DNA of 32,027 bases from a virus. Positions 10,427-32,027 of the stretch are shown here, piece after piece. Location of the stretch: positions 1 to 32,027 of IMG/VR virus record IMGVR_UViG_3300035698_003047. One strand, written 5' to 3'. The first letter of the stretch is position 1; every line of letters begins with the position of its first letter. The notes beneath the pieces are model-generated. The model made no database searches, was not told the DNA's origin, and saw only the letters and a program-made list of their open reading frames with translations. The position numbers and the translations under genes were made by a program.

Positions 10427-12788
10427 TAACTCTTCTGCTTCTGAGGTGCATGTTGCCTTCCCACTCAGCTGATAAGAACTGACAGGGTAGGTGGCTATCA
10501 CTTTCGATTATTACTCGAAGGCGGTCGGACTTCGACATTACAGGAAACCTAAAGTCACCGGAGGCCAGTGTGGTCGTTCCTAAAACGCCTGCACCGCCAC
10601 CAATTACTCGCCCTGTGTAATCATAAGTTCCTCCAAGTCCGTAGACTTCTAACGGTTTATAGCGTGGTTCAACTTTGACCGTGAAATCACCGCTGTCTTG
10701 ATAGCGTAAGAGCCAGTGTTTGATTTGCAGCCGACCACCAGAAATAGCAATTCGGCCACCGTTGGCCGTTGGTTCTTTCAGGGTTGGTTCTGAGAACTCA
10801 TAGGTCATGGTGTACGGTTCACCGACATACATATCTGTGGCCGTGTGGTCGCCAGCCACAACAATGGTGCTGCCAGTCGCCGAGACTTGTGATAGCACAG
10901 TGCCTTGCGTTGAGCCGCGTGTGACCACGACAGGCGAAGATAGCTCGTAAGGCGTGGTGATTGTAGTTTGCGCTGACACGCTGTCGTATGAGCGTGTGAG
11001 CGCCGTTTCGGCGAAGCGGTAATCTAGCCGCGTGACGTAACTTTGGTCCGTATCGAACCGTCCTTCATCAAAGTGGATCAAAACTAAGACAGTTTTCCCG
11101 CTCTTGTTGCCCACGACATAGAGCGCACTTTCGATAAACTGAGCATTTAATATGGTCATACTATCGAAGGTGTATTTAAACCAAGCGGACTGAACCTTCT
11201 CGCGGCCAGCAACATGATATTTGTAGATGTAAGCTGCTGATGTATCCTCTGTTGTTAGGCAAACAAGTGCATTCTCTGACGTACTTGCCGTCATAGAATA
11301 GACACCTTCAGGCACCAGCTTTGAGACATGCGAAGTAACATCAACGGCGTCAGACCTGTCGGTGTCATCGATAACGTAATATTCACGTACCGAAGTGAAG
11401 CCACCACGGGTTGCAGGAAAATACACAACGCTGCCAGCGGGTGCTGGTTTTGCAGTGGTGCTACTTTCATATTCGGTGGTTTGGCTAATTGACGTGTTCT
11501 TGGGTGTGATAAAGTCAGCGCCTTTGAGAATGAACTGCGTCTGGTCGGAAAACAGGAGTAGTTTTCGGTCAAATGGAATTGCGTGTTTAAGCAGCGAAAC
11601 CTTTGTATGGCTGGCTGCAACATCAATTGGGTCGTTATCTAATAGGCTTCTGGCTGTTGTGGCGAAGAAATCGAAATACTCTGATGTCCTCGACATGATG
11701 ACATTTTCTTCTGCCAACAGACCAAGCCTATTTTGGAAGAAGAAGACGTCTGAAATCTTGTTTCCTACAAACGATGGCGTCGGTATGGATGTTTCATCCC
11801 CAACTGCTCTGTCGCCCCAAGACGCTTGTTCGAATGTAAACGAGCCATCTGATTGTCTAATCAAAAGATGTGGCATGGTAGTGGCATCAATTTCATATTT
11901 GATGTTTGGTTTTATCCATTCAATCCATGTGCCGTTGCCAACTTTGACTTGGGAGCTGTTGTCGGAAACAAATTTCACATAGTAATCATCAAAGTCATTT
12001 GTCTGGTCACCTTGAACGTGGGCGATATAGCCTTCTGGCGCACGAGCAGGGAGGCCATCAAACCGCTGTACTGTGCCAACGGTTGGCGAAAGACCCGTGT
12101 CACCTAAGCTGTCATAGGTGGCGAGGTCGAAAGAGGCGTTCCCGGTCTTACTAATGACTACGGTTGAGCCGTCAGCAGAGGATGTGAATCCGCTTTGTCC
12201 GTTTATGGCTGATGCAAGGCGTGTCGCAATATCATCGGTTCGGGTTTGCATTTGGTCAGAGGCGCTTGTTGTGATGTCGGCTGCTAACGAACCATCCAGA
12301 TAAACTGTGTATCGTTGATTATAGTCACCTTGTTTTACTGAGATGAGACCTGTGTAGGGGTAGATTGGTGATAGTAGGTTTGCCATTGCTGTCGTTTGGG
12401 AAGTGTTCACGATGTACGTGTAGTCCGCAACGGTCACGGCTCTAAAGTCTGTCGCTGGTGTAGTGCTGTTCAGATAAGTTGTCCCATTGGGGTACGTTAC
12501 CGTTTTTGCATTACCTGCGAGGTCATAGACTGAAATCTGATTGCTGGCGTTGAAAAACACAAAATAGCGTTCATTTACGTCACGGTTAATTAGGTGTGTG
12601 AATGACCCCGTAGTTTCGGAGTTACTCATGATTGCCACGTGTTCTAGCGGTGGTCGCTTTAATAAGCCTTCAACCAAACTGGGGAAGGCATTCACTTGGT
12701 TCTCAGCTTGTGATGAAAGCCGCAAAGCTGGGGACTGTTGAGAGATGCCTTGGATTAGGTTGGGGATGGCAGAACTCATCATTGCCAT
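10419..12788 (-). CDS. Tail tubular protein B (nozzle), T7 gp12-like
   Basis: 789 residues, very close to T7 gp12 (794). The N-terminus carries the family signature: IPNLIQGISQQSPALRLSSQ...QVNAFPSLVEGLLKRPP, matching T7 GGISQQ...Q.N...EGL.KRPP. It forms the tail nozzle below the gp11 ring. The ATG overlaps the TGA of the gp11-like gene by one base (TGATG), so termination and re-initiation are coupled. Confidence 0.95.
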   Translation of the reverse strand: MAMMSSAIPNLIQGISQQSPALRLSSQAENQVNAFPSLVEGLLKRPPLEHVAIMSNSETTGSFTHLINRDVNERYFVFFNASNQISVYDLAGNAKTVTYPNGTTYLNSTTPATDFRAVTVADYTYIVNTSQTTAMANLLSPIYPYTGLISVKQGDYNQRYTVYLDGSLAADITTSASDQMQTRTDDIATRLASAINGQSGFTSSADGSTVVISKTGNASFDLATYDSLGDTGLSPTVGTVQRFDGLPARAPEGYIAHVQGDQTNDFDDYYVKFVSDNSSQVKVGNGTWIEWIKPNIKYEIDATTMPHLLIRQSDGSFTFEQASWGDRAVGDETSIPTPSFVGNKISDVFFFQNRLGLLAEENVIMSRTSEYFDFFATTARSLLDNDPIDVAASHTKVSLLKHAIPFDRKLLLFSDQTQFILKGADFITPKNTSISQTTEYESSTTAKPAPAGSVVYFPATRGGFTSVREYYVIDDTDRSDAVDVTSHVSKLVPEGVYSMTASTSENALVCLTTEDTSAAYIYKYHVAGREKVQSAWFKYTFDSMTILNAQFIESALYVVGNKSGKTVLVLIHFDEGRFDTDQSYVTRLDYRFAETALTRSYDSVSAQTTITTPYELSSPVVVTRGSTQGTVLSQVSATGSTIVVAGDHTATDMYVGEPYTMTYEFSEPTLKEPTANGGRIAISGGRLQIKHWLLRYQDSGDFTVKVEPRYKPLEVYGLGGTYDYTGRVIGGGAGVLGTTTLASGDFRFPVMSKSDRLRVIIESDSHLPCQFLSAEWEGNMHLRSRRVNG

Positions 12789-13378
12789 CAGCTTAATACC
12801 CTTTGGTTGAAGCCACGGTTCATGACACGTGCTACTGCGTAGCTATCCATCATGTTGTAGTCAGCAGTGTCACCTTCGAATGCTTTAAGGTCGATGAAGG
12901 CTTTTTGTTCATCACGCGCAATCATCTTGTGGATGCTTTCAGAGTTAAGCATGCGGTCTGAATATATGCGTGCTGCCCGTGTGGTTATGTATCTTTTGGC
13001 TGTATCAGGTAGGATAACAAAGTCTTGAAAGTAGACGATTGAAGCCTTTACTTTTCCCGTGAATGAAAAGGTTCGGTCAGTAAGATTAAATAGTTTACCT
13101 TCTCTCTGCACAACGTTGTAATTATTAGAATCAATTCTTGCAACATCGGCTGGTACAAAGATTTCATTTGTAGCGTTCGGTGATAACTCTACGCCATCTT
13201 CAGTGTTGAAGTGCCAACCCTGCGATTGAACTTCACGACTAACCTCATTCAATACTTGGCTAGCAATTGTAACGTCAGTCACTTGGTTGCCTGAGAGTGT
13301 ATTCACTGGGCTTTCACCAATAGTTGTAAGTAGGACGTTGACCGCTTCTAATTCGGTCATGCTTGTTGGTTTTGTCAT
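12788..13378 (-). CDS. Tail tubular protein A (gatekeeper), T7 gp11-like
   Basis: 196 residues (T7 gp11 has 196). Family features include the N-terminal AVNVLLTTIGESPVNTL followed by VLNEVSREVQSQGWHFNTE, typical of gp11 adaptor rings that join the portal to the nozzle. RBS GAGAGGA lies 7 nt before the ATG. It is the first gene after the capsid terminator and is read together with the gp12-like gene. Confidence 0.95.
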   Translation of the reverse strand: MTKPTSMTELEAVNVLLTTIGESPVNTLSGNQVTDVTIASQVLNEVSREVQSQGWHFNTEDGVELSPNATNEIFVPADVARIDSNNYNVVQREGKLFNLTDRTFSFTGKVKASIVYFQDFVILPDTAKRYITTRAARIYSDRMLNSESIHKMIARDEQKAFIDLKAFEGDTADYNMMDSYAVARVMNRGFNQRVLS

Positions 13379-13394
13379 GATGTCCTCTCATAAG

Positions 13395-13428
13395 AAAAAA
13401 ATGGGCTGGCCCCGTTAAGAGCCAACCC
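13395..13428 (-). terminator. Intrinsic terminator after the capsid gene
   Basis: On the minus strand GGGTTGGC, a 10-nt loop, GCCAGCCC (8 pairs, one G-U), then ATTTTTTTC. It lies directly after the capsid stop and before the RBS of the gp11-like gene. It corresponds in place to T7 T-phi, which lowers expression of genes downstream of the capsid. Confidence 0.88.
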
Positions 13429-13436
13429 AAAAAAGT

Positions 13437-14396
13437 TTAAGCAGATTTGATTTCGACTGCGCATTCTGGGCGCAAGATACCGTGGCCCATGGCATATTTT
13501 GCTGCCATAAGAGTGCCTTGGTACATAATCTCAAAATCACCTGAGGTACGCTCAACAGCGAGGTCCATCAGTTTAACAGTACCCAAGGCTTGCTTCTGCA
13601 TAACTACCGCTACGGTAGTCGAGAAGTCGCCGTGGTAGGTGTTATTCTCACCAGACACTGCAGATACGTTAGTTGATGGTACGTTGTTCGATTTAACGAT
13701 TTGGATACCAGCAACCTTTAGGACAGAGCCGTCTGCATATACGCCTGACCCGCCCCAATCACGATTGATAACATCAGTCGTTTGGACAAGGTTGTAGTAT
13801 TGTGCTGGCTTTACGATAGCCACACGCTCATTCTCAGGTACGTCTTTCTCGTCGAACACCTTTGCGGCTTCAAAGATTGACGCGGCAAGAGATGCGCCGT
13901 TGGTTGCTGCGTCAGCGTCTGTAATTGCTGAGCCGCCATTGCCACCTGATACAGTAGCACTGGAACGTGCTGCTAAGACTGCAAGTTGCAGCAAGCGAAC
14001 GTCAAACTGTTTGGCGAGAGCCATGCCCAAGAGGCGTGAATACTCTGCACGAACGTCATAGTGGTTTTTAGCTTCATCTATATTTGCGATGAATGTATCT
14101 GCAATCAGAACGTCATCGATGTTTACCACGACTTCGTTATGAGCAATTGTTTGTGTTCCCAATAGGGGTGTACCCACGGTGTGGTAGGCAGCGTTAGCTT
14201 TACCTGTCACTGGAAACTGGGCTGACTTACCAGACGAGATTGTTCGGCTGACGTGTAAGTCTTTCATTACGTTGGTTTCGTCGAATGCTGTGAGAACTTC
14301 ACCAGCAAAGACTTTTAAGAACAGAGCATTTGTCTGTGCATAGTTAGCCGCTGCAGAGTTTGCTGCACCTAAGCGGCTGGCTGTTACGTTGGTCAT
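13437..14396 (-). CDS. Major capsid protein, T7 gp10-like
   Basis: 319 residues. The N-terminal Ala-rich arm (MTNVTASRLGAANSAAANYA) is followed by ALFLKVFAGEVLTAFDETN and VSRTISSGKSAQFPVTGKA, the usual start of T7-type HK97-fold capsid proteins; DVLIADTFIANIDEAKNHYD is the next conserved block. T7 gp10A has 345 residues. It is the last gene before a strong terminator. Unlike T7, it is separated from the scaffold gene by about 2.5 kb of accessory genes. Its leader is long (about 470 nt from the repeat at 14869-14895). Confidence 0.93.
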   Translation of the reverse strand: MTNVTASRLGAANSAAANYAQTNALFLKVFAGEVLTAFDETNVMKDLHVSRTISSGKSAQFPVTGKANAAYHTVGTPLLGTQTIAHNEVVVNIDDVLIADTFIANIDEAKNHYDVRAEYSRLLGMALAKQFDVRLLQLAVLAARSSATVSGGNGGSAITDADAATNGASLAASIFEAAKVFDEKDVPENERVAIVKPAQYYNLVQTTDVINRDWGGSGVYADGSVLKVAGIQIVKSNNVPSTNVSAVSGENNTYHGDFSTTVAVVMQKQALGTVKLMDLAVERTSGDFEIMYQGTLMAAKYAMGHGILRPECAVEIKSA

Positions 14397-14484
14397 TTTA
14401 TAATTCCAAAATTGTGTTGATAAGGGGAAATGACTGTCGTTATGCTCAGGCCGAGGTTGTCACTCGCAAGTGGCCGCAGTTGTT

Positions 14485-14514
14485 CATAGTTGATAGTCCG
14501 TCTGCCTAAAGAGG
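14485..14514 (-). repeat. Degenerate third copy of the lipoprotein-gene leader
   Basis: The minus strand reads CTTTAGGCAGACGGACTA then TCAACTATG. This resembles the start of the two better leader copies (CTTTGGCAGACTGACTTTG then ATACTTATGG) with small indels. It lies upstream of the capsid gene and may be the remnant of a duplicated cassette unit or a shared regulatory site. Only partial similarity, so low confidence. Confidence 0.4.
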
Positions 14515-14545
14515 CATGACATTTGACCCAGTGAGAAATTATTAA

Positions 14546-14725
14546 ATGCAGAAAATTATCAGTTTATTTGTAATTTGTTCGGCTCTTGCCACACCCGCTT
14601 TCTCTGAAGATGGTCGCTATCAGGTGGTCGTAATCGGAGATAAACCCACTTATCTTGTGATTGACACTAACACTGGCAAAACACGTTATTGTCAGGCCTA
14701 TGCACACGATTTAAAACTTAAGTGA
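14546..14725 (+). CDS. Small secreted protein, opposite strand (59 aa)
   Basis: A 59-codon plus-strand frame in the gap between capsid and the lipoprotein genes. The first 20 residues (MQKIISLFVICSALATPAFS) form a clean Sec signal peptide: Lys near the N-terminus, hydrophobic core and an A-F-S cleavage site before EDGRYQVVV. The mature part, about 39 residues, is GRYQVVVIGDKPTYLVIDT followed by a single-Cys C-terminal part. A weak GTGAGAA precedes the ATG by 6 nt. It runs against all surrounding genes, as lysogenic-conversion genes often do. I recognise no family. The signal peptide argues for a real gene. Confidence 0.55.
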   Translation: MQKIISLFVICSALATPAFSEDGRYQVVVIGDKPTYLVIDTNTGKTRYCQAYAHDLKLK

Positions 14726-14805
14726 TAAGCACATCGTCGTTGCCCTATAAACAGTTACTCTAGTGTTACCCTTTTTCTGTTCACCGACGACGACTATAAC
14801 CTATA

Positions 14806-14824
14806 AATACATCCAAGATGTATT
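14806..14824. other. Perfect 8-bp inverted repeat with 3-nt loop
   Basis: AATACATC-CAA-GATGTATT lies in the AT-rich gap between the plus-strand small gene and the 27-bp repeat. No T-run follows on either side, so an intrinsic terminator is unlikely. It could be an operator or an mRNA hairpin. The remaining non-coding sequence of this gap (14726-14942) shows nothing else clear besides the repeat at 14869. Confidence 0.4.
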
Positions 14825-14868
14825 ATTAAACTAAGATAATATTTTCTTTGTCGCTATAATCTTGAAAC

Positions 14869-14895
14869 ATAAAGTCTCCCTCGGCTGGGGCCAAA
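14869..14895 (-). promoter_or_regulatory. 27-bp repeat, copy 1: candidate phage RNA polymerase promoter
   Basis: An exact copy of 15404-15430. On the minus strand it ends in GCCGAGGGAGACTTTAT. The GGGAGA core is the initial transcribed sequence of T7-type promoters, and the conserved block would span about -15 to +12 if the first G of GGGAGA is +1. It lies upstream of the capsid gene. No further exact copies were seen in the window, which weakens the promoter reading; an alternative is a recombination or processing site. Confidence 0.45.
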
Positions 14896-14942
14896 TCAAT
14901 TCTCACGATATGTGCCAATAATTCTGAATGAATATTGCTGCC

Positions 14943-15293
14943 CTAATAGCATGTGACTCTTCTGCCACTAGAGCTGACACGACAATGGGACGTATTTCTA
15001 GCAGGAGTAACTGGGTTATAGACAGGAGGGTTATAAATAGATGAAGAGCTTCTGGGCGCACCTGCTCTAGCCTCTCGCTCAGCCGCAATCTCTTGGTTTA
15101 TTCTTTTTGCGTACTTCCTGCAATTTAAACCTCTAGATTCTATCTCTGCTTGTCTAACGCGTGCTGCTGGGCCAACTTTCGTTATTGTAGCTTTACTATA
15201 ACAGAGCTGATAATCTGTTTTACCTTCATATTTAGCGGCACATCCAGCCAATAAACCCAAGCCAACAATCGCAGCAATCAAAGCGTAACGCAT
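14943..15293 (-). CDS. Small lipoprotein B (116 aa)
   Basis: The signal peptide MRYALIAAIVGLGLLAGC carries the lipobox LAGC with Cys18 as the lipidation site. The mature part has a motif seen in many small proteobacterial lipoproteins (YQLCYSKA, then A..EIESRGLNCRKY). After that come a charged helix (INQEIAAEREARAG), a Ser/Pro-rich linker and a C-terminal CRVSSSGRRVTCY with two Cys. RBS GGAG lies 9 nt before ATG. The gene is bracketed by the two 27-bp repeats, so it may have moved or been copied as a unit. A role in superinfection exclusion is possible by analogy with phage lipoproteins such as T5 Llp but is not shown by the sequence. Confidence 0.75.
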   Translation of the reverse strand: MRYALIAAIVGLGLLAGCAAKYEGKTDYQLCYSKATITKVGPAARVRQAEIESRGLNCRKYAKRINQEIAAEREARAGAPRSSSSIYNPPVYNPVTPARNTSHCRVSSSGRRVTCY

Positions 15294-15303
15294 TTTATAA
15301 TCT

Positions 15304-15353
15304 CCATAAGTATCAAAGTCAGTCTGCCAAAGAGCAAGCCAATCTACAAACTT
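15304..15353 (-). repeat. 50-bp leader repeat upstream of lipoprotein B
   Basis: Aligned by eye without gaps, 42 of 50 bases match 16437-16486, which precedes lipoprotein A. On the minus strand the block ends in ATACTTATGG, whose last two Gs begin the gene's ribosome binding site. The shared leader means the two lipoprotein genes arose from a duplicated expression unit or are controlled together. The rest of this intergenic stretch (15354-15403) shows nothing recognisable. Confidence 0.75.
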
Positions 15354-15403
15354 ATTCTTTGTTTTGCCGTGAAAATAGCAAAGTGATTAAAGTCAAACGT
15401 CAG

Positions 15404-15430
15404 ATAAAGTCTCCCTCGGCTGGGGCCAAA
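15404..15430 (-). promoter_or_regulatory. 27-bp repeat, copy 2: candidate phage RNA polymerase promoter
   Basis: Identical to 14869-14895 over all 27 bases, while the bases on either side differ. In the minus direction it lies after the Sel1 gene and before lipoprotein B, in a gap where a new transcript could start. The GGGAGA core supports a T7-type late promoter. The leader between it and lipoprotein B is about 110 nt. Confidence 0.45.
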
Positions 15431-15477
15431 GTCAGTTTCGTGTGACATTAACCAAGGAATAACATGCAGTAGCCCAG

Positions 15478-16098
15478 TTAATACCCACACTTGGTATAGC
15501 CACTGCTCATGCACTCACGGGCCATAGCAGTCGCTTTCTCTATTGCTGCTGGGGTCATTAGACCTGCTCGCTCATCTCTCCATTCACCTGCCTTATCGTG
15601 ACCATTAGCAGACGCAATGTTGTACCACATGTGAGCCATGACGTTATCTTGAAGTACGCCATTGCCGTACTCATACATGACACCAAGATTGTTTTGACCA
15701 TTATCATATCCTTGCTCAGCAGCTAGACGATACCACTTCACAGCTTCTTTGTAGTCTTGAAGAACGCCTTGGCCTTTGTCGTACTTAATCCCAAGATTGA
15801 ATTGAGCTTTAGCAATCCCTTGCTCAGCAGCTAGTCGATACCACTTCACAGCTTCTTTGGAGTCTTGAGGAACGCCTTGGCCTTTGTTGTACATAATACC
15901 AAGATTGTATTGAGCGTTCGCATATCCTTGTTCAGCTAAAGGCGTCCACTCTTGAATGGCCGTAGCAAAGTCACCAGCATTGTAAGCATCGTAACCCTTG
16001 TCAAAGTCCTGTGCTGCGACGGGTGAGGAGAGCGTCATCAGAAACGCTAGAACCAGAAAGTGGATCGCCCGTATTGGCTTGGTTAGGTGTTTAGTCAT
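15478..16098 (-). CDS. Secreted Sel1-repeat (TPR-like) protein
   Basis: 206 residues from the ATG at 16098, which has GAGGAGG 3 nt upstream; an earlier in-frame ATG at 16128 would add an odd Met/Arg-rich leader. Residues 1-30 are a signal peptide ending SSPVAAQ. From about residue 35 there are four Sel1-like repeats of 36 residues (AEQGYANAQYNLGIMYNKG, AEQGIAKAQFNLGIKYDKG and so on), ending in a capping helix with two Cys (ARECMSSGYTKCGY). Sel1 proteins are protein-protein adaptors in the periplasm or at the surface. The second and third repeats are nearly identical at DNA level with a 108-bp period (15721 versus 15829). A Sel1 gene inside a T7-like structural operon is unusual and suggests acquisition from a host. 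Confidence 0.85.
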   Translation of the reverse strand: MTKHLTKPIRAIHFLVLAFLMTLSSPVAAQDFDKGYDAYNAGDFATAIQEWTPLAEQGYANAQYNLGIMYNKGQGVPQDSKEAVKWYRLAAEQGIAKAQFNLGIKYDKGQGVLQDYKEAVKWYRLAAEQGYDNGQNNLGVMYEYGNGVLQDNVMAHMWYNIASANGHDKAGEWRDERAGLMTPAAIEKATAMARECMSSGYTKCGY

Positions 16099-16166
16099 TG
16101 TCCTCCTCATCCTCATCATAAACATCAATGTAAATGTGAATTACGCCCGTACAGCGGTAGAGGTAG

Positions 16167-16424
16167 TCAGTTACAACCACCCTGCCTGCAGTACCAACTA
16201 TTATTGAAATTATCTCGCGCTCTATTTCTACGAGCAATAGAACGATTACTTGCTATTTCTTTCTGGAGCCGGCTTTCCTCTGCAACACAATTACGGAAGT
16301 CAGAAGTACCATTCTTATAACCGTATCCAGAACAAGTCTGAACGGGAGTTTGTGGAGGAGGGCCATACAAGCAACCCGCCAAAGGTAGAAAAGCAATACT
16401 TGCTATCAAGACTGATTTTATCAT
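16167..16424 (-). CDS. Small lipoprotein A (85 aa)
   Basis: The signal peptide MIKSVLIASIAFLPLAGC carries the lipobox LAGC (Cys18). The mature part has a Pro-rich stretch (YGPPPQTPVQ) followed by TCSGYGYKNGTSDFRNCV, a C-x(n)-YGy..GT..f..C pattern common in small alpha/gammaproteobacterial lipoproteins, then a basic helix and a Cys-containing end. RBS GGGGAT lies 10 nt before ATG. It shares its 50-bp leader with lipoprotein B. The proteins themselves are only distantly alike, mainly in the lipoprotein signal. Confidence 0.72.
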   Translation of the reverse strand: MIKSVLIASIAFLPLAGCLYGPPPQTPVQTCSGYGYKNGTSDFRNCVAEESRLQKEIASNRSIARRNRARDNFNNSWYCRQGGCN

Positions 16425-16436
16425 TTGTGACTATCC

Positions 16437-16486
16437 CCATAAGTATCACACTCAGACTGCCAAAGAACAAACCCATCTGCAAACTA
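16437..16486 (-). repeat. 50-bp leader repeat upstream of lipoprotein A
   Basis: Matches 15304-15353 at 42 of 50 positions by eye, including the block GGCAG..TGA.T.TGATAC. The end overlaps the lipoprotein A ribosome binding site. The upstream edge overlaps a short inverted repeat (CAAAC-TAAAT-GTTTG, 16481-16495). Confidence 0.75.
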
Positions 16487-16522
16487 AATGTTTGTCTTGG
16501 AAATTGACGGGGGGCTAAAAAT

Positions 16523-16867
<345 letters not shown>

Positions 16868-16894
16868 TGTTCTTACTCCCAAAAATATACGAGT

Positions 16895-16918
16895 AGTTTG
16901 GATAACTTATCAAACTAA
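16895..16918. other. Inverted repeat in the scaffold-HIRAN gap
   Basis: TAGTTTG and CAAACTA flank GATAACTTAT in the 70-nt gap before the HIRAN gene. The inner bases are also nearly palindromic. No T-run follows directly, although ATATTTTT occurs about 10 nt downstream on the minus strand. Candidates are an operator, a weak terminator or an mRNA hairpin at the entry to the accessory cassette. Confidence 0.4.
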
Positions 16919-16937
16919 GGGGCCTTGGCAACCTTCA

Positions 16938-17657
16938 TTAAAATACGCTTGAACGGCCCAGCTTCTGCTCAACGTCTTTCGTGTAAGCAGTGTCTTTGCC
17001 GTATCTTGGGTCTTTCATCGCAGCTACAACTTGAGCCGTAGAGCGGAACTCATCTTTCAATGCTGCTTGAGCCTTGCCTGAAACTAGGTTTGGCTCTGTG
17101 TCACCCGCAGCATCCCGCTTGGACATCATCCACTCGACAGCCATCTTCGCATTGTCGGTGCCGTTAGAGACCATCTGATTGTAAACTTCGAGTTCGTTGG
17201 ACGCCATGTTATCACGCGCCCAATCCGTCAGGTCTTTATACCCATCTTCGCCACCAGCCACCGCCATAACGGTATTTGAATCCGCCTCTTGGTTTGACTG
17301 CATGCCTTGGATGTAGGTCTCCACCATTGCCTTTGGGTAACCCATTTGCTCCAACTCAGAGAAACTATCGTCAGACAACGCACCATCAGCTGCATATTCC
17401 TCAGAGAATTTACCAAACTCTGGACTTGCGTTTTCTTTATTCTCAGTTGGATTATCATCAGTTGTCGCTTCATTTTCAGCTGGGGTTTCCTTTGGGACAG
17501 AGAGTTTCTTTTCAAGTTCCGTGTATGACTTCGCCAAGTCTTCGGGAGAGTTAAACTTTTCTGGCAACCAATCTGGACGTTCAGATGCTTGGTTATCCTC
17601 AGCACCGGGTGCTTCTGGGCCAGTTTCGGGTTCAGTAATGGTTATGCTTTCTGCCAT
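16938..17657 (-). CDS. Scaffolding protein, T7 gp9-like
   Basis: 239 residues, strongly acidic and Glu/Asn-rich in the first half (TEPETGPEAPGAEDNQ) with a conserved RPDWLPEKFNSPEDLAKSY.ELE.KL block, the usual N-terminal signature of T7-like scaffold or capsid assembly proteins. The C-terminus is basic (DPRYGKDTAYTKDVEQKLG), as expected for the capsid-binding helix-turn-helix. It lies between portal and capsid, but the capsid is displaced by the accessory cassette. Confidence 0.9.
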   Translation of the reverse strand: MAESITITEPETGPEAPGAEDNQASERPDWLPEKFNSPEDLAKSYTELEKKLSVPKETPAENEATTDDNPTENKENASPEFGKFSEEYAADGALSDDSFSELEQMGYPKAMVETYIQGMQSNQEADSNTVMAVAGGEDGYKDLTDWARDNMASNELEVYNQMVSNGTDNAKMAVEWMMSKRDAAGDTEPNLVSGKAQAALKDEFRSTAQVVAAMKDPRYGKDTAYTKDVEQKLGRSSVF

Positions 17658-17659
17658 GT

Positions 17660-17758
17660 TTAGAAGTCTTCCCGTGTACGAGTGGGCTTCTTAACAATGG
17701 TAGGTGCGGCCAGTGTTGGCTTAGCCGCCGTTTCCTTGCTGTCTTTGGTTTTCGACAT
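17660..17758 (-). CDS. Small basic protein between portal and scaffold (32 aa)
   Basis: Starts MSKTKDSKETAAKPTLAAP and ends KKPTRTREDF. It overlaps the end of the portal gene by 38 nt and ends 2 nt before the scaffold ATG. AGGA lies 7 nt before the ATG. The fit of RBS, overlap and spacing argues for a real gene. It is Lys/Thr/Pro-rich and probably unstructured; function unknown. Confidence 0.6.
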   Translation of the reverse strand: MSKTKDSKETAAKPTLAAPTIVKKPTRTREDF

Positions 17759-19271
17759 ACGAATTTCCTAATGCTTTAACGCCTTCTTGAATTGCACTTG
17801 GGCCTGCCTGCTGCATCATCTGCGCTTGCATTGCCTGTTGCTGTTCTTGGGCGATTTGTTCTTGTGATTTGATAAGGCCATCAGTCTCGATGCCGAGAGC
17901 CGTGGCGCGACGTTTGATATAATCCTGCAGGTTTACGTATTGCTGCAGAACCTCTGGTCCTAAAGCCTGTGTCATACCTTGAATGAAGAGGTCTAACTTG
18001 CGCAGGTCATGACCACGGCCAAGTGCTTCCATCCCAGTAACGATGGTGGGTTTCACCACATTGTCTGGAAGTTTGGGTAGCTTCTTAGCTTTGGTCAGGA
18101 CATCTATCTTGCGATTGACGTATGGAAGTTGGAACTCTTGAGACAGGATTGAGTAGATACCTGATAGGGTGTCTTCTAGTTCTCCGGCGAGGTATCGGAT
18201 TTCTTCTGCGGTGACCCGCTCTCCGTTACGCTGAACAGAAGATTGAAGCATAAACTGTTGCGAAAGCCTTTCTTCGATTCCCTGCATTGCTTGGTAGGCA
18301 ACTCTAAAGTCGTTGAATTTATCCATTTGAAGGACTGATACATCGTTCTTGTTTCCTTCGATGATTGCTGTGTTTTCCGCCTGAGCGATATTACGCATAC
18401 GGGTGGTACCGTTTGGATTGACCAAGAACAGAACCTTAGCCGCTGCGGCAGCACCCTCCACGATAGCCTGTGAGAGCGCCTCTAGTGAGCGTAGGTCGCC
18501 TAAAAGTTCTTCTACGAACCCACGGCCATAATCTTCACCATCGATGCGAGAGAAGCGTAGAGGGAGGAAGGGGACATTGGCTTTCTTGTATTTACCTTTA
18601 GTTCCAGCAACCACTGTGCCTTTGCATTCTTGATAGACTGTAAAGAACTCGTTCTTGCGTTCTATGTGGGTAAAGACCTCAACAGTCTTTTCGTCACCTT
18701 CGAGTTTACCTGAGATATTAGCGGCAGTCGCTTTGTCTAATGCGTTAGGCGAGACATGCTCAACCGTTACAATTTCTAAGACTTCGCCATTAGGCGCACG
18801 AGAGACCACATAGCTATCCAAATGGATTACTCTGGTCTTCTCAGGGCCAACTTGCAAAAGCACGTTGCCGCCGACAATTAAGTGTTTAAGTGCTTCATGC
18901 ACTGCAACTCTGTCGCCTGACGTTTCAATCTCACTCATTACTGCACGCTCGTACTCACCCAATTGTTGTTCAATTTGGGTTCGCGCCGCGTTATCTGGTG
19001 CCAAATCCTTTAAGGTGTATGGCTCTACCATGAAGCGAAAGAACGGAGAGTTTGGGGGCATAAGGGCAAGTGATAGCTTTGAGGCTAGGTTGTTTACGCC
19101 CCTCGCACCGATACCTTGAAACGGAGTGTATAAATCACTTGTCTCATTATGGATGTCTTGTGGGATGAGGGAGGGGATAGTTAGCTCAGAACAATCTCTA
19201 GCTCTATCCAAGTATGATTGTCGGGTCTGTTCGAGTTGATGATAACGCGCTTCTGCGGTTCCCATGCTCAT
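17721..19271 (-). CDS. Portal (head-tail connector), T7 gp8-like
   Basis: 516 residues (T7 gp8 has 536). The family start YHQLEQTRQSYLDRARDCSELTIPSL is followed by GARGVNNLASKLSLALMPPNSPFFR, very close to other T7-type connectors; GEDYGRGFVEELLGDLRSLE and a Gln-rich C-terminus (QEQIAQEQQQAMQAQMM) are also typical. The 12-fold ring is the DNA entry gate and the docking site for the gp11 ring. RBS GTGAGAA lies 7 nt before the ATG; a second ATG two codons later is also possible. Confidence 0.95.
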   Translation of the reverse strand: MSMGTAEARYHQLEQTRQSYLDRARDCSELTIPSLIPQDIHNETSDLYTPFQGIGARGVNNLASKLSLALMPPNSPFFRFMVEPYTLKDLAPDNAARTQIEQQLGEYERAVMSEIETSGDRVAVHEALKHLIVGGNVLLQVGPEKTRVIHLDSYVVSRAPNGEVLEIVTVEHVSPNALDKATAANISGKLEGDEKTVEVFTHIERKNEFFTVYQECKGTVVAGTKGKYKKANVPFLPLRFSRIDGEDYGRGFVEELLGDLRSLEALSQAIVEGAAAAAKVLFLVNPNGTTRMRNIAQAENTAIIEGNKNDVSVLQMDKFNDFRVAYQAMQGIEERLSQQFMLQSSVQRNGERVTAEEIRYLAGELEDTLSGIYSILSQEFQLPYVNRKIDVLTKAKKLPKLPDNVVKPTIVTGMEALGRGHDLRKLDLFIQGMTQALGPEVLQQYVNLQDYIKRRATALGIETDGLIKSQEQIAQEQQQAMQAQMMQQAGPSAIQEGVKALGNSYVENQRQQGNGG

Positions 19272-23668: not shown

Positions 23669-24055
23669 TTATGATTGGGGTTTTAAGAAGGTTGTGTCGC
23701 TCTCGAAGTGAACAATGCGGTGGCAGTTTGCGCAGAGCAGGTGGCACTTATCCGCTTCGGTAATTAGGTCGCCCCACACACGGCTCATGTGCCGTTGTGA
23801 TAATGGGAAAACCTTTTGGCTTGGGTCTTGGTGGTGGAAGTCAAAGGCGACGTAGTGATGCGGTTCATTGCACCTCTCACAGATGCCACCTTTGTAAGCC
23901 ACCAGTTCCTGACGACGGCTGTTACGCTTACGGCGTTGTGCCTCAGTGCGTGTCGGCCCACGTCTGTCCGACCTTAAATTCTCCTGTGATGGGGCATCTA
24001 AAGTCGTAATACGTGCCAGCTTCCTCGAAGGCGCTGACGGCTTGTTGTCCGACAA
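23669..24055 (-). CDS. HNH endonuclease, start uncertain
   Basis: Up to 128 residues. Zinc-finger and HNH elements: C-E-R-C, FDFHHQDPSQK, then KCHLLCANCHRIVH. An N-terminal Arg/Lys-rich stretch (RTEAQRRKRNSRRQEL) could bind DNA. The frame's first usable start, a TTG at 24055, lies 113 nt inside the DNA polymerase gene, and there is no ATG. A good AGGAG at about 23978 is followed by no canonical start in this frame. It may start at TTG or a rare codon. Stand-alone HNH genes next to DNA polymerase are typical of mobile homing-type endonucleases. Confidence 0.75.
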   Translation of the reverse strand: MSDNKPSAPSRKLARITTLDAPSQENLRSDRRGPTRTEAQRRKRNSRRQELVAYKGGICERCNEPHHYVAFDFHHQDPSQKVFPLSQRHMSRVWGDLITEADKCHLLCANCHRIVHFESDTTFLKPQS

Positions 24056-25727
24056 TGGTGGCTATGTCCTCTGTGGCGATAAGCTGAACCTCGTCGTGGA
24101 CATGTGCGACCAGCGCATAGTCCTTGCCGAAACGGTAACCCATGTGGGTCAAGTTTTCGTACAGTATGACGGTTGCTCTCTTAGCTAGGATTGCCCCTGC
24201 CGATTGAAGCAACATGTTCAGTGCGGAATGTTCTGAACGGATTGGCAACGTGCGCCCATCCAGTCCCGTGAGGTGACCCTTGGCTTTAACGGTTCTGACT
24301 ACAGCCTCACGCAGCATCTTGATGGCAGGTGTCGCCTTCATGAATTTACTGATGAGTTTCTTGCCTTCGGCTTCAGTACCACCAACGATTGACCCAATCT
24401 TTGCTGGGCCAGCACCATACAGAAATCCGTAGATAAAAGTCTTTGCGTTATTGCGTGTTGGCAGTCCCGCAGCCTTTTGGTTGGCTGTATGGACATCTCC
24501 GTTCACGACCTCCTCGCTATAAGAGCCATCGTCAAACTTCGCCATGTAGTGGGCGAGGCAGCGTAGCTCTAAGCCTGAGAGGTCAGCACCGACCAGCCGT
24601 GAGCCTTTGGGTGCATGAAACAATTCACGACATTCTTTGCCGTATGGTGCGTTGACGCTAGGCGTCTGGCTCATGTTGGGCCTGTTATGGGTGCAGCGAA
24701 ATGTGGCACACCCTGATGTTATGACTTGGCCGTGCATCTTACCGTTGCGTTCCAGCTTGAGCCAAGCGTTTTGACCCGTTGCCAGCTGACCAATGCGTTT
24801 GTTGAGCATAAGATACTCGTTCAGCGCATCTGCCTCAGGGTAATCAAGATGCTTTAAAACATCTTCATCGACCTTTGGTTTGCCGTTGGCTGTGAAATCT
24901 GTAGGCAACCAGCCGTGGATAGCCATGAGCCGATTAGCGATGTGGTCACGTGAGGCTGCGTTGAAGACGACGCTCTTAACTTTGTGCGTCATCACCCCTT
25001 TTTCATAGCCTCGTGTCTTGTTGTTCACTTTGGGTATGAACGGCTCACGGATTTCCCAAGGGGGGAAGGCGGCTTGCAGTTCAGCTTCAAGTGAGGCTTT
25101 ACGTGATTGCAGCTTGGCCAATAGAGCGTTTGCCTTGGTCACATCGAATGGAAAGCCATGGTCTTCCTGCTTGCGTATGATTGCAGCGAAGTCATGTTCC
25201 AGCCGAATGCTATCGGCGGTTGGCTCTTTGCTCAGAATTTTATTGTAGAGCGTCAGGTTGGTGTAAATGTCCTGCTCGCAATAGGTTTGCATTTCCTCTG
25301 ACCACTGACCCCAGCCACCCGTGTATTCAATCTTTTGGTTGCTCAGGCGGTGGCCCCAAGCGCCAAGCGAGTGGGAGCCAATTAGTTTCATCGGAAAGTC
25401 TTTGTTCTTTTTGGCAAACTTGAAGTCATTTTCTTTCAAGTCAGACCAGACTAACCGAGACATTATCAGTGTATCATGTATCTCACCATGATACATAAAG
25501 CTGTAAATTTTCTGTAAGGCTGGTAAGTCAAAGCCTTGGATGTTGTGGCCTATAAGGCGCTCTGCTTTGCTTAGAATTTCTAAGCCTTCAGCAATGGGAA
25601 TATATCCATCTTGGTCTGCGCAGGATACCATTTCGTCTGTATCAACATCTAACATAACCAGTGAGTGACACTCATCTAGTTCTGTAAGAAGTCCATTAGT
25701 TTCAATATCAAATATGATGTTCTTCAA
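23943..25727 (-). CDS. DNA polymerase, family A, T7 gp5-like
   Basis: 594 residues from a TTG start (AAGGGGA 8 nt upstream). The 3'-5' exonuclease residues are D7/E9 (FDIET), D67 (GFDLPAL) and D153 (YCEQDIYT). Polymerase motif A is GADLSGLELR (D382), motif B RNNAKTFIYGFLYG (K429 to G438), motif C AHVHDEVQLI (H543-D545-E546). It is about 110 residues shorter than T7 gp5, probably through a shorter thumb insertion, so a thioredoxin-binding loop may be missing; that is inference from length. It replicates the phage genome with the helicase and SSB encoded upstream. Confidence 0.95.
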   Translation of the reverse strand: MKNIIFDIETNGLLTELDECHSLVMLDVDTDEMVSCADQDGYIPIAEGLEILSKAERLIGHNIQGFDLPALQKIYSFMYHGEIHDTLIMSRLVWSDLKENDFKFAKKNKDFPMKLIGSHSLGAWGHRLSNQKIEYTGGWGQWSEEMQTYCEQDIYTNLTLYNKILSKEPTADSIRLEHDFAAIIRKQEDHGFPFDVTKANALLAKLQSRKASLEAELQAAFPPWEIREPFIPKVNNKTRGYEKGVMTHKVKSVVFNAASRDHIANRLMAIHGWLPTDFTANGKPKVDEDVLKHLDYPEADALNEYLMLNKRIGQLATGQNAWLKLERNGKMHGQVITSGCATFRCTHNRPNMSQTPSVNAPYGKECRELFHAPKGSRLVGADLSGLELRCLAHYMAKFDDGSYSEEVVNGDVHTANQKAAGLPTRNNAKTFIYGFLYGAGPAKIGSIVGGTEAEGKKLISKFMKATPAIKMLREAVVRTVKAKGHLTGLDGRTLPIRSEHSALNMLLQSAGAILAKRATVILYENLTHMGYRFGKDYALVAHVHDEVQLIATEDIATIVGQQAVSAFEEAGTYYDFRCPITGEFKVGQTWADTH

Positions 25728-25752: not shown

Positions 25753-27399
25753 TTAAAAGTCTTCTATGACTTCTCCGTTTGTGGCTTCATCCTCAAAGAG
25801 CGTCGGGTCTTCGACTTCCGTCATTCGTCCAGTTTCTTTGTTGTAGTGAATGAAGCCTGCGACACCTGTTTCACCCGTGAAGCGGTTCTTCAGAACACGG
25901 AGCGTTGAGATGTCTGGCGTGTCGCTCTGCTGGTCTCGCTCAACGCCGATACAAATGTCGGAAAGCTGTGCTATTGCGGCTGAGCCACGCAATGAATTGA
26001 GGTTAGTTTCCAACCCATTTTCCCAGCCTTTGTCACCCGATGGACGCTTTAGGTGGGACACGAGGATAAGGCCAAGGCCCGTTTCTTCGCATAGGCTGCG
26101 TAGCTTGGTCATGATGATGTCGATAGATTTGCGCTCATCACCGTTATCAACACCAGAGACTACAATGCTGAGGTGGTCGAGTATGACCCAGCCAACATTA
26201 CAAGCCTTGGCCAAGTAACGAACCCTGTTCAGCAGGTTGTCTGTGGCGATAGAACCAAAGTGGTCATATAGAAACACCCGTCCACTGCCTACAGTCTCAT
26301 CAAATGCAGTGCGCATGACCGCCTCAGATATACCTTCTTTGGTGAGATGTAGTGGTTTTTCCAGCGATAGACCCATCAGGCCCAGTGCTGTGCGCTTGGT
26401 ATTTTCTTCCAACGCAATGTAGCCGATGCTCTCGCCACGGGTTAGCAATTCAAATGCAATCTCACGGCAGACTTGGGATTTACCGACGCCAGAACCAGCC
26501 GTAATAGTGACCAGTTCGCCGCGCCGCATCCCCAATGTCTTTTGATTAAGACCTGCAAATGGGTAGTCGATTGATGGCCTATCATCGTCAGCCATGATGG
26601 TTTCCCACATGTTCTGACCATCGATGATACCATCGGGGCGATAGATTTTAGCATCCCACATTGCCGAAATTAGGTCAGCGCCTTTACCAGCTACCAGCAT
26701 TTCGTTGGCATCTTTAAGGGGCAGGGTGGCTATAGCCGCCTTACCAACTGACAACATTGCTGCAACTTCTAGGCTTGCAAGTCGACCAGCCTCGTCATTG
26801 TCAAACATGATGACAACTTTATCAAAACTTTCGATAAACTCTAATGAGTTGGCCACGGCTTTCTTTGCGCCAGCTGCACCTGTTCCAACGCTCACAACTG
26901 GGAAACGGTTACCTTGGACTTGGCTCATGCTTAGTGCATCAACCTCGCCCTCTGTAATAACCAACATTTTACCACCCTCGTTACGCCAAAGGTGTTGCCC
27001 ATAAAGGCCAGCCTTTTTCGTATCGCCGATGAATTTGAACTGTTTGTCTTTGAAGCGCAGTTTCTGGGCGACAGGTGCGCCAGTTGCATCACGATAGGTT
27101 GCGATTTGGACTGCTTCGCCGTGGTAATCACCGATGGTATAGCCAAACTTACGGCAGGTCTCATCGGTGATGCCACGCTTAGGCAACGCTTGGGCTTCCC
27201 CAAACGGTATTAGGTCTTGCGGCATTCGAGTTCCACTTCTTGAAAGCTCCTGTTCATCGCCCCTTGTTCGGGCGGTGCAGGAGAAACAATAGGTGTGTCC
27301 ATCGCTGTAGATGGCTCTGGCGTCAGATGACCCACAGGATGGACACGGTTCTTTGCGGAGGTATTCGCTTTCGCTAGCCAGCAAGGCTGTAGACCGCAT
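25753..27399 (-). CDS. Primase-helicase, T7 gp4-like
   Basis: 548 residues. The N-terminal zinc ribbon (C19, C22, C38, C41) and a TOPRIM primase domain (VITEGEVDALS, E150; IMFDNDEAG, D200/D202) precede a DnaB-type helicase with Walker A GSGVGKS (302-308), the ALEENTKR block, Walker B WVILDHL (D408) and SHLKRPSG. The acidic C-terminus ends in EVIEDF; in T7 the terminal Phe and acidic tail bind the polymerase. The full length with zinc finger matches the long T7 gp4A form (566). It overlaps the small HTH gene by 26 nt. Confidence 0.96.
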   Translation of the reverse strand: MRSTALLASESEYLRKEPCPSCGSSDARAIYSDGHTYCFSCTARTRGDEQELSRSGTRMPQDLIPFGEAQALPKRGITDETCRKFGYTIGDYHGEAVQIATYRDATGAPVAQKLRFKDKQFKFIGDTKKAGLYGQHLWRNEGGKMLVITEGEVDALSMSQVQGNRFPVVSVGTGAAGAKKAVANSLEFIESFDKVVIMFDNDEAGRLASLEVAAMLSVGKAAIATLPLKDANEMLVAGKGADLISAMWDAKIYRPDGIIDGQNMWETIMADDDRPSIDYPFAGLNQKTLGMRRGELVTITAGSGVGKSQVCREIAFELLTRGESIGYIALEENTKRTALGLMGLSLEKPLHLTKEGISEAVMRTAFDETVGSGRVFLYDHFGSIATDNLLNRVRYLAKACNVGWVILDHLSIVVSGVDNGDERKSIDIIMTKLRSLCEETGLGLILVSHLKRPSGDKGWENGLETNLNSLRGSAAIAQLSDICIGVERDQQSDTPDISTLRVLKNRFTGETGVAGFIHYNKETGRMTEVEDPTLFEDEATNGEVIEDF

Positions 27400-29326: not shown

Positions 29327-31801
29327 TTAGGCGAAGAAAAATTCAGAATTACGGACGCTCGTTAGGTCTAAGTCACCTTTTTCAGGTGGCTCAGGTAACA
29401 GTTGGTTGGTCAACGTTTGGGTCTGGGTACGAAACATTTCCAATGGATTGTTGTCCAAATAAAGTTCGATAAACGCTTCACGTAGACATGCACTTAGCAG
29501 AGGAATATCCGCTGCATGAGTTCCAAAGCTGTCGTGTATCATTGCAAAGTTAGAGATACCGACTGCAGCCGCCCGATTGACCGTCATCCGTAGATGACAG
29601 CCGTCATTTGCGTGCACCCAATTAGGGCTGATGCTGTTGCACTGTTTCTTTCGGTCAATTTGATTTTTGGCTTCAAGAAGGCTGACATACACAAGGCTTT
29701 CACCCAGTTTAGTTTTTATCCTGCGGCGTCTGGTGTTTGGGTAGTGCTGCAGAACAGGGAACCCATCTAGGGTCGTCCAGATCGTTGGGATGTTTTCCTC
29801 TGCTAATATTTTGGCGCATGCTTGTAGCCAATCCATCCCATCTTTAGCGGCTACAACCGTTTCATTGATACTCTGCCAAATGTACTCGGCCAAATAGAGG
29901 GACGCTTCCCACTCACGGTCCAGAAGGGGACTGACATAGTTTGGGTCTTCCTGTTTGCGCTGTGCGTCCGCATCTCTGAAATATTCTTCCACGAAACTGC
30001 GAGCGGAAAACTGAGTAGAACCATAGACCCTAGTCATTGTGCAGCGTTTTGCTGCCTTTCTGGATAAACCATAATCCAGACAGGCTTTTGCCAAATCCTT
30101 TTTATCACCACTTAAATCTAACCGCACCTTCTCTATCGCCTTGTCGATGACACGCTGGTAAATATCCTCCGGTCTGTCAGCTGGTATCAGGTTGGTCGCC
30201 AACGCACCGATTGGGTCACGCAATGCAGCTGAAAAATGTTGTAGGCCAGAACAACTGCCATCTTTCGCTACTGGGATGTGGCTGAGATGGCCGTAGCCGT
30301 CCCTGTGGAAGCCTTCCCACTCTTTTGCAAATGCTAGGAAGCACCATGGGCTATCAGCTTCCTTGGCCCACCAGAGGTCTGCCATCGGGTCTGCCGCCAC
30401 CTTTAGTATTCTCTCATAGTTTTCGTAGACCCAATCAATGCGCTCATCCATGCTCACTTTGTCATAACCAAAGCAGTTGGCACCGTGGACGGCCAATTCA
30501 AATGCAGCCTCGTTGCAGCCAATAATTTTTCCTTCGGCAAACTCAAGCAGCCCCTTGGCCAGTTTATTGCCCTGAGGGTTCAGATACATTGGGGCAGGGT
30601 AGAGACGCCCCCTAAAGTCCATCGTGTGCGGAAAATATATAGAGTCATATTTTTCAAATTGCTTAGCAATAGAGCCAATTTTAGCCATCATAAGCCGTTT
30701 TGATTTAAGGACGATGTTGGCTTCGTGGCGCTCAGTCTCTTTCCGTTTCCAAGATTTGAAAGCAAGTGTTTCTTTTTCGTTTAGCTGGTTTGTTTTCTGA
30801 TACTCTCCAAGCGGGGATGGTATTGGTGGGATGTCCTCGTGGCTTGGCAGACTGGCCACGGGTAGCCCAAGTGCATCAATCTGATTGTAAACTTCCAAGA
30901 CAAAAGAATTGATGCGCCAAGGTGTGCGCTGCACCGAGTTCACAGCAGTATAAACGGCTGACATCTGGTCAGTTACGCTGCACAGGTCGTCAAAATAATT
31001 TTTACCCTGACTATTATGACGCACTTTAATCAGTGGCATTTGTGGGGTGTGGTGGGTGATATATCCCCCACTTGTTGGTGAGGTCCAATTTAGTGGCACC
31101 ACCACCATCGGCAGATGAACGGGATTGAACAGGCTGGCGACCTCTTTGTTGGCCTCAATGAAGTCACACACAGTTTGACTGGGCTTTATGTAGATGTCCG
31201 TTCTGTTTTTCTTTCTGGTGACACGGTGTTCTACGATAAAACCAGTTGCTTCTGTGAACATGGAGATGAGGGCCATGCCAACATGGACTTTATCTGTCTT
31301 AGACCATGACGCCCACGTTTCGGCATAGCGATTGGATGCTGCGACAAATGTTTGAAGTCGGCGCGCACCAGTGGTCTTGGTCTCGCTATCTATTTTCCGA
31401 AACAGGTTTGGGTGCTGCTGTTCAAAAGTGGCGAGGCGCACCTCATATTCCAAAGCTGAACCAATGCGGACAGCCACGTCCTGTATGAGGTTGGAAAACA
31501 TGATGCGGTCAATGATGACATTGGCGGCATGAAAGGCGACGAGTTCGGGGCGCAGTTTTTGGATATGTTTGAACGCGATATTTGCATTTCCCGCTCTACC
31601 TTTAAGCAAAGCCTTCTGCTTTTCCATTATTGAATCTGCCAGCGGTTCAATTGCGCGTTTAAGTAAGGGCGAGCCAAAATACGTTTTGGACTGTTCTCCG
31701 TCCTGTATTTTTGTCGTCAGGTCATTGTGAAATTTCAGAGCGGTTTCCGCTCGGCTCTGCTTTTCGATAGTTTCTTGCACTGCATAAAGGTCAACTGTCA
31801 T
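29327..31801 (-). CDS. Single-subunit DNA-directed RNA polymerase, T7 gp1-like
   Basis: 824 residues (T7 has 883). Landmarks: MDFRGRLYPAP (from 394), motif A KDGSCSGLQHFSAALRD with D514, motif B around K585 and Y593 (RKAAKRCTMTRVYGS; the 8-residue spacing equals T7 K631-Y639), and motif C AMIHDSFGTHAAD with D757. The chain ends EFFFA, equivalent to the T7 FAFA end needed for catalysis. The specificity-loop region before PNWVHANDGCHLR differs from T7, so its promoter sequence must differ too. It is the first gene after the attachment region and should be read by the host polymerase. Confidence 0.97.
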   Translation of the reverse strand: MTVDLYAVQETIEKQSRAETALKFHNDLTTKIQDGEQSKTYFGSPLLKRAIEPLADSIMEKQKALLKGRAGNANIAFKHIQKLRPELVAFHAANVIIDRIMFSNLIQDVAVRIGSALEYEVRLATFEQQHPNLFRKIDSETKTTGARRLQTFVAASNRYAETWASWSKTDKVHVGMALISMFTEATGFIVEHRVTRKKNRTDIYIKPSQTVCDFIEANKEVASLFNPVHLPMVVVPLNWTSPTSGGYITHHTPQMPLIKVRHNSQGKNYFDDLCSVTDQMSAVYTAVNSVQRTPWRINSFVLEVYNQIDALGLPVASLPSHEDIPPIPSPLGEYQKTNQLNEKETLAFKSWKRKETERHEANIVLKSKRLMMAKIGSIAKQFEKYDSIYFPHTMDFRGRLYPAPMYLNPQGNKLAKGLLEFAEGKIIGCNEAAFELAVHGANCFGYDKVSMDERIDWVYENYERILKVAADPMADLWWAKEADSPWCFLAFAKEWEGFHRDGYGHLSHIPVAKDGSCSGLQHFSAALRDPIGALATNLIPADRPEDIYQRVIDKAIEKVRLDLSGDKKDLAKACLDYGLSRKAAKRCTMTRVYGSTQFSARSFVEEYFRDADAQRKQEDPNYVSPLLDREWEASLYLAEYIWQSINETVVAAKDGMDWLQACAKILAEENIPTIWTTLDGFPVLQHYPNTRRRRIKTKLGESLVYVSLLEAKNQIDRKKQCNSISPNWVHANDGCHLRMTVNRAAAVGISNFAMIHDSFGTHAADIPLLSACLREAFIELYLDNNPLEMFRTQTQTLTNQLLPEPPEKGDLDLTSVRNSEFFFA

Positions 31802-31970
31802 TCATATTCCAATCAGAATTTGGCAACAGAAAGACGTGCCGCTGCACAAGCAGGGCTGCATCTTCTGTTCTTATGTTTTTAAGGGTTTGACTGCGGATTA
31901 CCCTCGTATTTACCTCATATTAGAGGGTTGTCCGCGTAAGATTATCATTTAAAAACAGTATTCTGATAGA
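31802..31970. promoter_or_regulatory. Leader between attachment site and RNA polymerase gene
   Basis: 169 nt without a gene. The host RNA polymerase should start here to express the phage polymerase. I see an inverted repeat CCTC-ATATTA-GAGG inside a larger CCCTC...GAGGG pair (about 31901-31925), a possible operator, and AT-rich -10-like words on the minus strand (TGATAAT, TAATAT). I see no convincing paired -35 box, so no single promoter is called. Confidence 0.4.
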
Positions 31971-32027
31971 GATTCAAAATCCCCCGTCCTAACGGATGTG
32001 CCGGTTCGAGTCCGGCCTTGGGTACCA
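31971..32027 (+). other. tRNA-Leu(CAA) 3' fragment: likely phage attachment site
   Basis: The last 57 nt carry the anticodon loop TTCAAAA (anticodon CAA, 31975-31977), the 3' anticodon strand, a class II variable arm (CCGT-CCTA-ACGG), the T-arm GCCGG-TTCGAGT-CCGGC, acceptor strand CTTGGGT, A and CCA. It closely follows bacterial tRNA-Leu(CAA). The 5' half is absent: bases upstream of 31971 do not pair with the anticodon stem properly (AGAGA against TCCCC) and no matching acceptor or D-arm is found. A tRNA 3' end next to the first phage gene is the classical form of attP, attL or attR used by tyrosine integrases. Confidence 0.85.

Follow-up and report, generated by a model that had tools for sequence, protein, structure and literature searches.

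The window analyzed here is the entire IMG/VR record IMGVR_UViG_3300035698_003047, a linear stretch of 32,027 bp without end repeats. At its right end lies a 57-nt piece of tRNA-Leu(CAA) (31971-32027, plus strand), and 169 nt of intergenic DNA (31802-31970) separate it from the first gene, which encodes a single-subunit T7-like RNA polymerase of 824 aa on the minus strand (29327-31801; PF00940, 1.2e-102, and PF14700). The same strand carries genes for a T7-type primase/helicase (25753-27399; PF21268, PF03796), a family A DNA polymerase (23943-25727; PF00476), a head-tail connector or portal (17721-19271; PF12236) and a gp10A-like major capsid protein (13437-14396; PF21703). A collagen-like tail protein gene, recognized as an open reading frame and by its gene order relative to roseophage CRP-125, is truncated by the left contig end (2-1942, minus strand). 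Other genes encode a Gp2.5-like SSB, endonuclease I, an amidase, ribonucleotide reductase, a scaffold protein, tail tubes, internal virion proteins and collagen-like fibres. The overall arrangement follows the T7-type order of RNA polymerase, SSB, endonuclease I, lysozyme, primase, DNA polymerase, portal, scaffold, capsid, tail tubes, internal proteins and fibre, which, together with the gene content and the single-subunit phage RNA polymerase, places the phage within the Autographiviridae.

Comparison with isolated phages revealed synteny with CRP-125 from the RNA polymerase through the collagen-like tail genes. The RNA polymerases of CRP-125, CRP-113 and CRP-171 were the closest among isolated phages, with 56-57% identity, and megablast detected no close DNA relatives among them. 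Relative to CRP-125, the record lacks about 6 kb at the late end, where maturases A and B are encoded, as well as about 3 kb of the early region, where the CRP phages carry their integrase. The record is cut inside the collagen-like tail gene at its left end, and the terminase genes and the early region are missing past this cut. No match to integrases of the L002 (see below), CRP or G154 type was found inside the 32,027-bp record.

The initial annotation had described the right end as the 3' end of tRNA-Leu(CAA) lacking its 5' half, and this description proved exact in its coordinates. The piece, GATTCAAAATCCCCCGTCCTAACGGATGTGCCGGTTCGAGTCCGGCCTTGGGTACCA, begins with the last two stem bases preceding the anticodon loop and ends with the encoded CCA, which closes the record. 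It corresponds without mismatch (57/57) to positions 30-86 of the complete tRNA-Leu(CAA) in four Rhodobacteraceae MAGs (L020-L023), including Planktomarina and Tateyamaria, in each of which ARAGORN calls an 86-nt tRNA-Leu(CAA); a bacterial tRNA with the same 3' half, which the annotation had proposed to search for, is thus present. At the 5' edge of the core the identity breaks abruptly, with CAGGGGATTC in the host and GATAGAGATTC in the phage. Judged from the alignment, an exact match of 57 nt cannot be due to chance. The 45 nt upstream of 31971 show no more similarity to the 5' half of the tRNA than shuffled sequences do (74% of shuffles scored as high). Neither a complete tRNA gene (ARAGORN), nor an Rfam tRNA match, nor further 12-mers of tRNA-Leu(CAA) elsewhere were detected in the 32,027-bp record.

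By its position alone, the intergenic DNA between the piece and the RNA polymerase gene would contain one arm (P) of a phage attachment site. It holds an imperfect inverted repeat at 31893-31935 (8031-8073 in L002), with 13-nt arms (GCGGATTACCCTC and GAGGGTTGTCCGC) and a 17-nt spacer, which may be regulatory, an integrase-arm site or a transcript hairpin. No additional exact copies of this repeat occur within the 32,027-bp record, and no convincing repeat common to both flanks of the core was found that could represent arm-type integrase sites. The same 57 nt of tRNA-Leu(CAA) also occur at positions 327-383 of an apparently unrelated phage contig, L003 (IMGVR_UViG_3300027810_000380), where the match extends a few bases deeper into the anticodon stem. 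This fragment encodes a collagen-like tail protein and virion protein phrog_3287, and contains neither a complete tRNA nor an integrase.

The initial annotation had proposed to look for a tyrosine integrase to the right of the window or at the far left end of the phage, and a sister contig continues into one on the right. Contig L002 (IMGVR_UViG_3300022867_000991) is identical to the record at each of the 8,165 nt between position 23863 and the right end, and runs 1,337 nt past the CCA. After 107 nt it enters the gene of a 352-aa tyrosine integrase (PF00589, 8.9e-15). This gene shares its strand with the RNA polymerase gene, and its end faces the tRNA piece; the catalytic R...K...HxxR...Y residues of the integrase are conserved in the alignment. 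Beyond the integrase, the contig contains the tail of a small ORF (57 aa) that overlaps the integrase start, and no other phage gene; contigs extending L002 were not found. The GC content of the integrase gene (0.47; 0.50 at third positions) equals the phage values, and that of the host region is similar too. The location of the tRNA piece between the integrase and RNA polymerase genes in L002 identifies it as a putative attP core. All six CRP phages compared (CRP-125, CRP-113, CRP-171, CRP-227, CRP-361 and CRP-114) share the integrase-RNA polymerase order of L002, in agreement with the earlier remark that some marine T7-like relatives keep an integrase near the RNA polymerase (PMC11092137).

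The best relatives of the L002 integrase are chromosomal integrases of Rhodobacteraceae, with 44-49% identity. Among the 20 best of these, 11 have tRNA-Cys(GCA) in their flank, which indicates that integrases of this group target tRNAs. Another of the 20, from the Rhodobacteraceae genome G154 and about 47% identical to the L002 integrase, adjoins tRNA-Leu(CAA), which lies 102 nt from the integrase with its CCA side first. A displaced 53-nt 3' half of tRNA-Leu(CAA) is situated 42 kb away, and genes for a terminase, a tape-measure protein and a head protease lie between the two. As read from these genes and repeats, the G154 element is an integrated prophage of 42 kb at exactly such a tRNA-Leu(CAA) site. 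In G412, from the genus group of the Planktomarina MAG, an integrase remnant lies 109 nt past an intact tRNA-Leu(CAA); it is 84% identical to the L002 integrase over 55 aa, and the spacer after the CCA can be aligned to L002. Relatives of the small ORF ahead of the L002 integrase also precede the chromosomal integrases. The relatives in G412 and G154 thus support a predicted specificity of the L002 integrase for tRNA-Leu(CAA).

Based on these observations, the best explanation of the locus as a whole, to which we assign a probability of roughly 0.8, is a marine T7-like phage of the Autographiviridae, infecting RCA/Planktomarina-like Rhodobacteraceae, whose 57-nt piece is the attP core and which is able to integrate into the host tRNA-Leu(CAA). 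The order along the phage would be integrase, 107 nt, attP core, 169 nt, RNA polymerase, replication genes and structural genes. Recombination by the integrase would take place between the core and the identical stretch of the host tRNA-Leu(CAA), at its anticodon loop. The resulting attL would join the host 5' half to the phage 3' half, forming an intact tRNA gene adjoining the integrase, and attR would consist of the displaced 3' half adjoining the RNA polymerase gene. After recombination of attP with attB in silico, ARAGORN recognized a tRNA in attL, as it did in attB, but not in attP or attR. The capacity for integration appears well supported; we infer that the integrase in L002 belongs to the phage, that it acts on the core and that integration occurs. 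Of the proposal that the phage is temperate or integrating, the second part is supported by the putative attP core and the integrase in L002. The first part does not follow, since T7-like cyanophages with a functional integrase and attP integrate and yet form no stable lysogens (PMC8776855).

The stop of the record at the CCA had been read as a prophage boundary or an att-defined cut; the stop is indeed exact, but the boundary reading fares less well, as L002 runs on into the integrase and an assembly break is likelier. The 57 nt of the core are the last bases common to the free phage, the integrated phage and the host tRNA, so that an assembly graph would fork after the CCA, and the record end is most likely such a fork at sequence shared with the host tRNA or with integrated copies. 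We rejected a physical phage end at the CCA, past which L002 continues with an identical backbone, and dropped the idea of reading an exact assembler k-mer from the stop, which would require knowing the assembler. It would be rather improbable that the record represents the right-hand edge of an integrated prophage (attR), from which phage-finding software trimmed the host DNA at the CCA. An integrated copy would indeed end with the RNA polymerase, the displaced 3' half and host DNA, as in the record, which is linear and lacks end repeats. However, L002, the only longer copy found, enters the integrase and not the host downstream sequence, which is recognizable in Planktomarina genomes. Furthermore, the left end falls inside a tail gene, which marks the record as a fragment and not an att-to-att cut, and makes a cut by software less likely. 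A parallel to the stop at the CCA occurs at a tRNA-Leu(CAA) in G402, of the Planktomarina group, where one of two contigs (C34 and C101; L100/L099) ends at the CCA and the other begins 55 nt ahead of a CCA, hinting at a fork from an element that only some cells of the population carry in integrated form.

The attachment site could be real and the integrase in L002 nevertheless owned by another element, either through an assembly jump via the 57 nt into a host island or through tandem integration of the phage before an island already resident in the same tRNA. The integrase and its companion ORF are of the chromosomal Rhodobacteraceae prophage or island type, unlike the cassettes of the CRP phages. 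In addition, the 84%-identical remnant sits at tRNA-Leu(CAA) in the host genus, L002 shows no further phage gene past the integrase, and the exact stop of the record at the CCA suggests an assembly fork there. Nevertheless, we regard this as unlikely: the six closest cultured relatives all have an integrase at the same place and in the same orientation, a phage with such an attP requires a tRNA-Leu(CAA)-specific integrase, and the GC and third-position GC contents match those of the phage, a point weakened by the similar values of the host region. If L002 were chimeric or showed a tandem arrangement, the integrase would have a different owner, but the att core would still be the same. tRNA genes do occur in some phages, and the piece might be conceived as the decayed remains of such a gene, or as a scrap transduced by chance that has no att function. 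We give this very little credence, as the exact identity is bounded by the anticodon stem and the CCA with no 5' remnant, the site adjoins an integrase and the RNA polymerase gene, and the unrelated phage L003 has the same 57 nt.

Returning to the attP reading, a tRNA-Leu attP beside an integrase is already known in T7-like cyanophages and in a pelagiphage-like contig, and integrases are known in T7-like roseophages. In the cyanophages P-SSP7 and S-TIP37, the attP that follows the integrase is identical to a stretch of the host tRNA-Leu; integration in tRNA-Leu was demonstrated by PCR and requires both int and attP (PMC8776855). Their hosts are cyanobacteria, and their attP motifs comprise 39-44 nt of the first half of tRNA-Leu, in contrast to the 57 nt of the 3' part found here. 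The contig of Mizuno et al., a relative of pelagiphage HTVC019P, carries an integrase and a 46-nt piece identical to a host tRNA-Leu, which was the basis of its host assignment (PMC3861242); it differs from the present phage in its SAR11 host and in belonging to another phage group. The G154 prophage resembles L002 in its integrase (about 47% identical), its orientation, the spacing of about 100 nt to the tRNA and the 3' half displaced to its other end; unlike the present phage, it is a tailed phage with a tape-measure protein and another terminase family, and is not T7-like. What is new here is the greater length of the core and its origin in the 3' part of the tRNA, together with an integrase from a different branch.

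The T7-like roseophages CRP-125, CRP-113 and CRP-171, whose hosts are Roseobacter strains, share with the present phage an integrase placed directly before the RNA polymerase and in the same direction. They differ in that their integrases are only about 20% identical to that of L002 and that no tRNA-Leu(CAA) match was found in their integrase-polymerase gap. If L002 is right, such divergence at the same locus suggests that the whole integration module (companion ORF, integrase and attP) was exchanged for one of the chromosomal Rhodobacteraceae prophage type, a scenario for and against which we see the odds as even. Were it true, T7-like roseophages with nearly the same backbone would aim at different host sites from the same locus, and the place ahead of the RNA polymerase gene, with int and att, would act as a socket into which modules are swapped. 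The comparisons also suggest that integration modules are passed among phages that share hosts without being related. For T7-like roseophages, integrases and a potential for lysogeny have been named in a report in which the word "attachment" does not occur and the attachment site is left undescribed (PMC11092137). The present analysis predicts the integration site precisely and assigns the phage to a host group; with this, integration can be tested by PCR or by metagenome read counts across the four junctions, as in cyanophages.

We also searched for integrated copies and equivalent sites, and detected no integrated copy of the present phage. The four MAGs with the matching tRNA all lack the polymerase, and the five matches to T7-like polymerases among 395 Rhodobacteraceae genomes included none close to that of the phage. 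In IMG/VR, the search for integrated junctions found the sequence preceding the core in L002 only. The integrase-polymerase gap of CRP-125 gave no matches in 61 genomes of the family. An 8.8-kb contig, L055 (IMGVR_UViG_3300027859_000435), carries the tRNA-Leu(CAA) 3' piece at both 1-49 and 8780-8828, with an integrase-like match close to one end, and is possibly a small integrating element or satellite. A decayed T7-like prophage was found inside the host tRNA-Leu(CAA) of another genome (L095; G020:C20:72000-91000), at positions 12327-16960. It comprises an RNA polymerase fragment, a phrog_9665 regulator and a CRP-type integrase with an internal deletion, and the two tRNA halves have only GGATTCAAAA (10 nt) in common. 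The element contains its own intact tRNA-Leu(CAA) at 16684-16767, and a pattern search detected no other Leu(CAA) gene. This T7-like remnant in a Rhodobacteraceae genome bears the hallmarks of tRNA-dependent lysogeny, as described in actinophages (PMC10865867).
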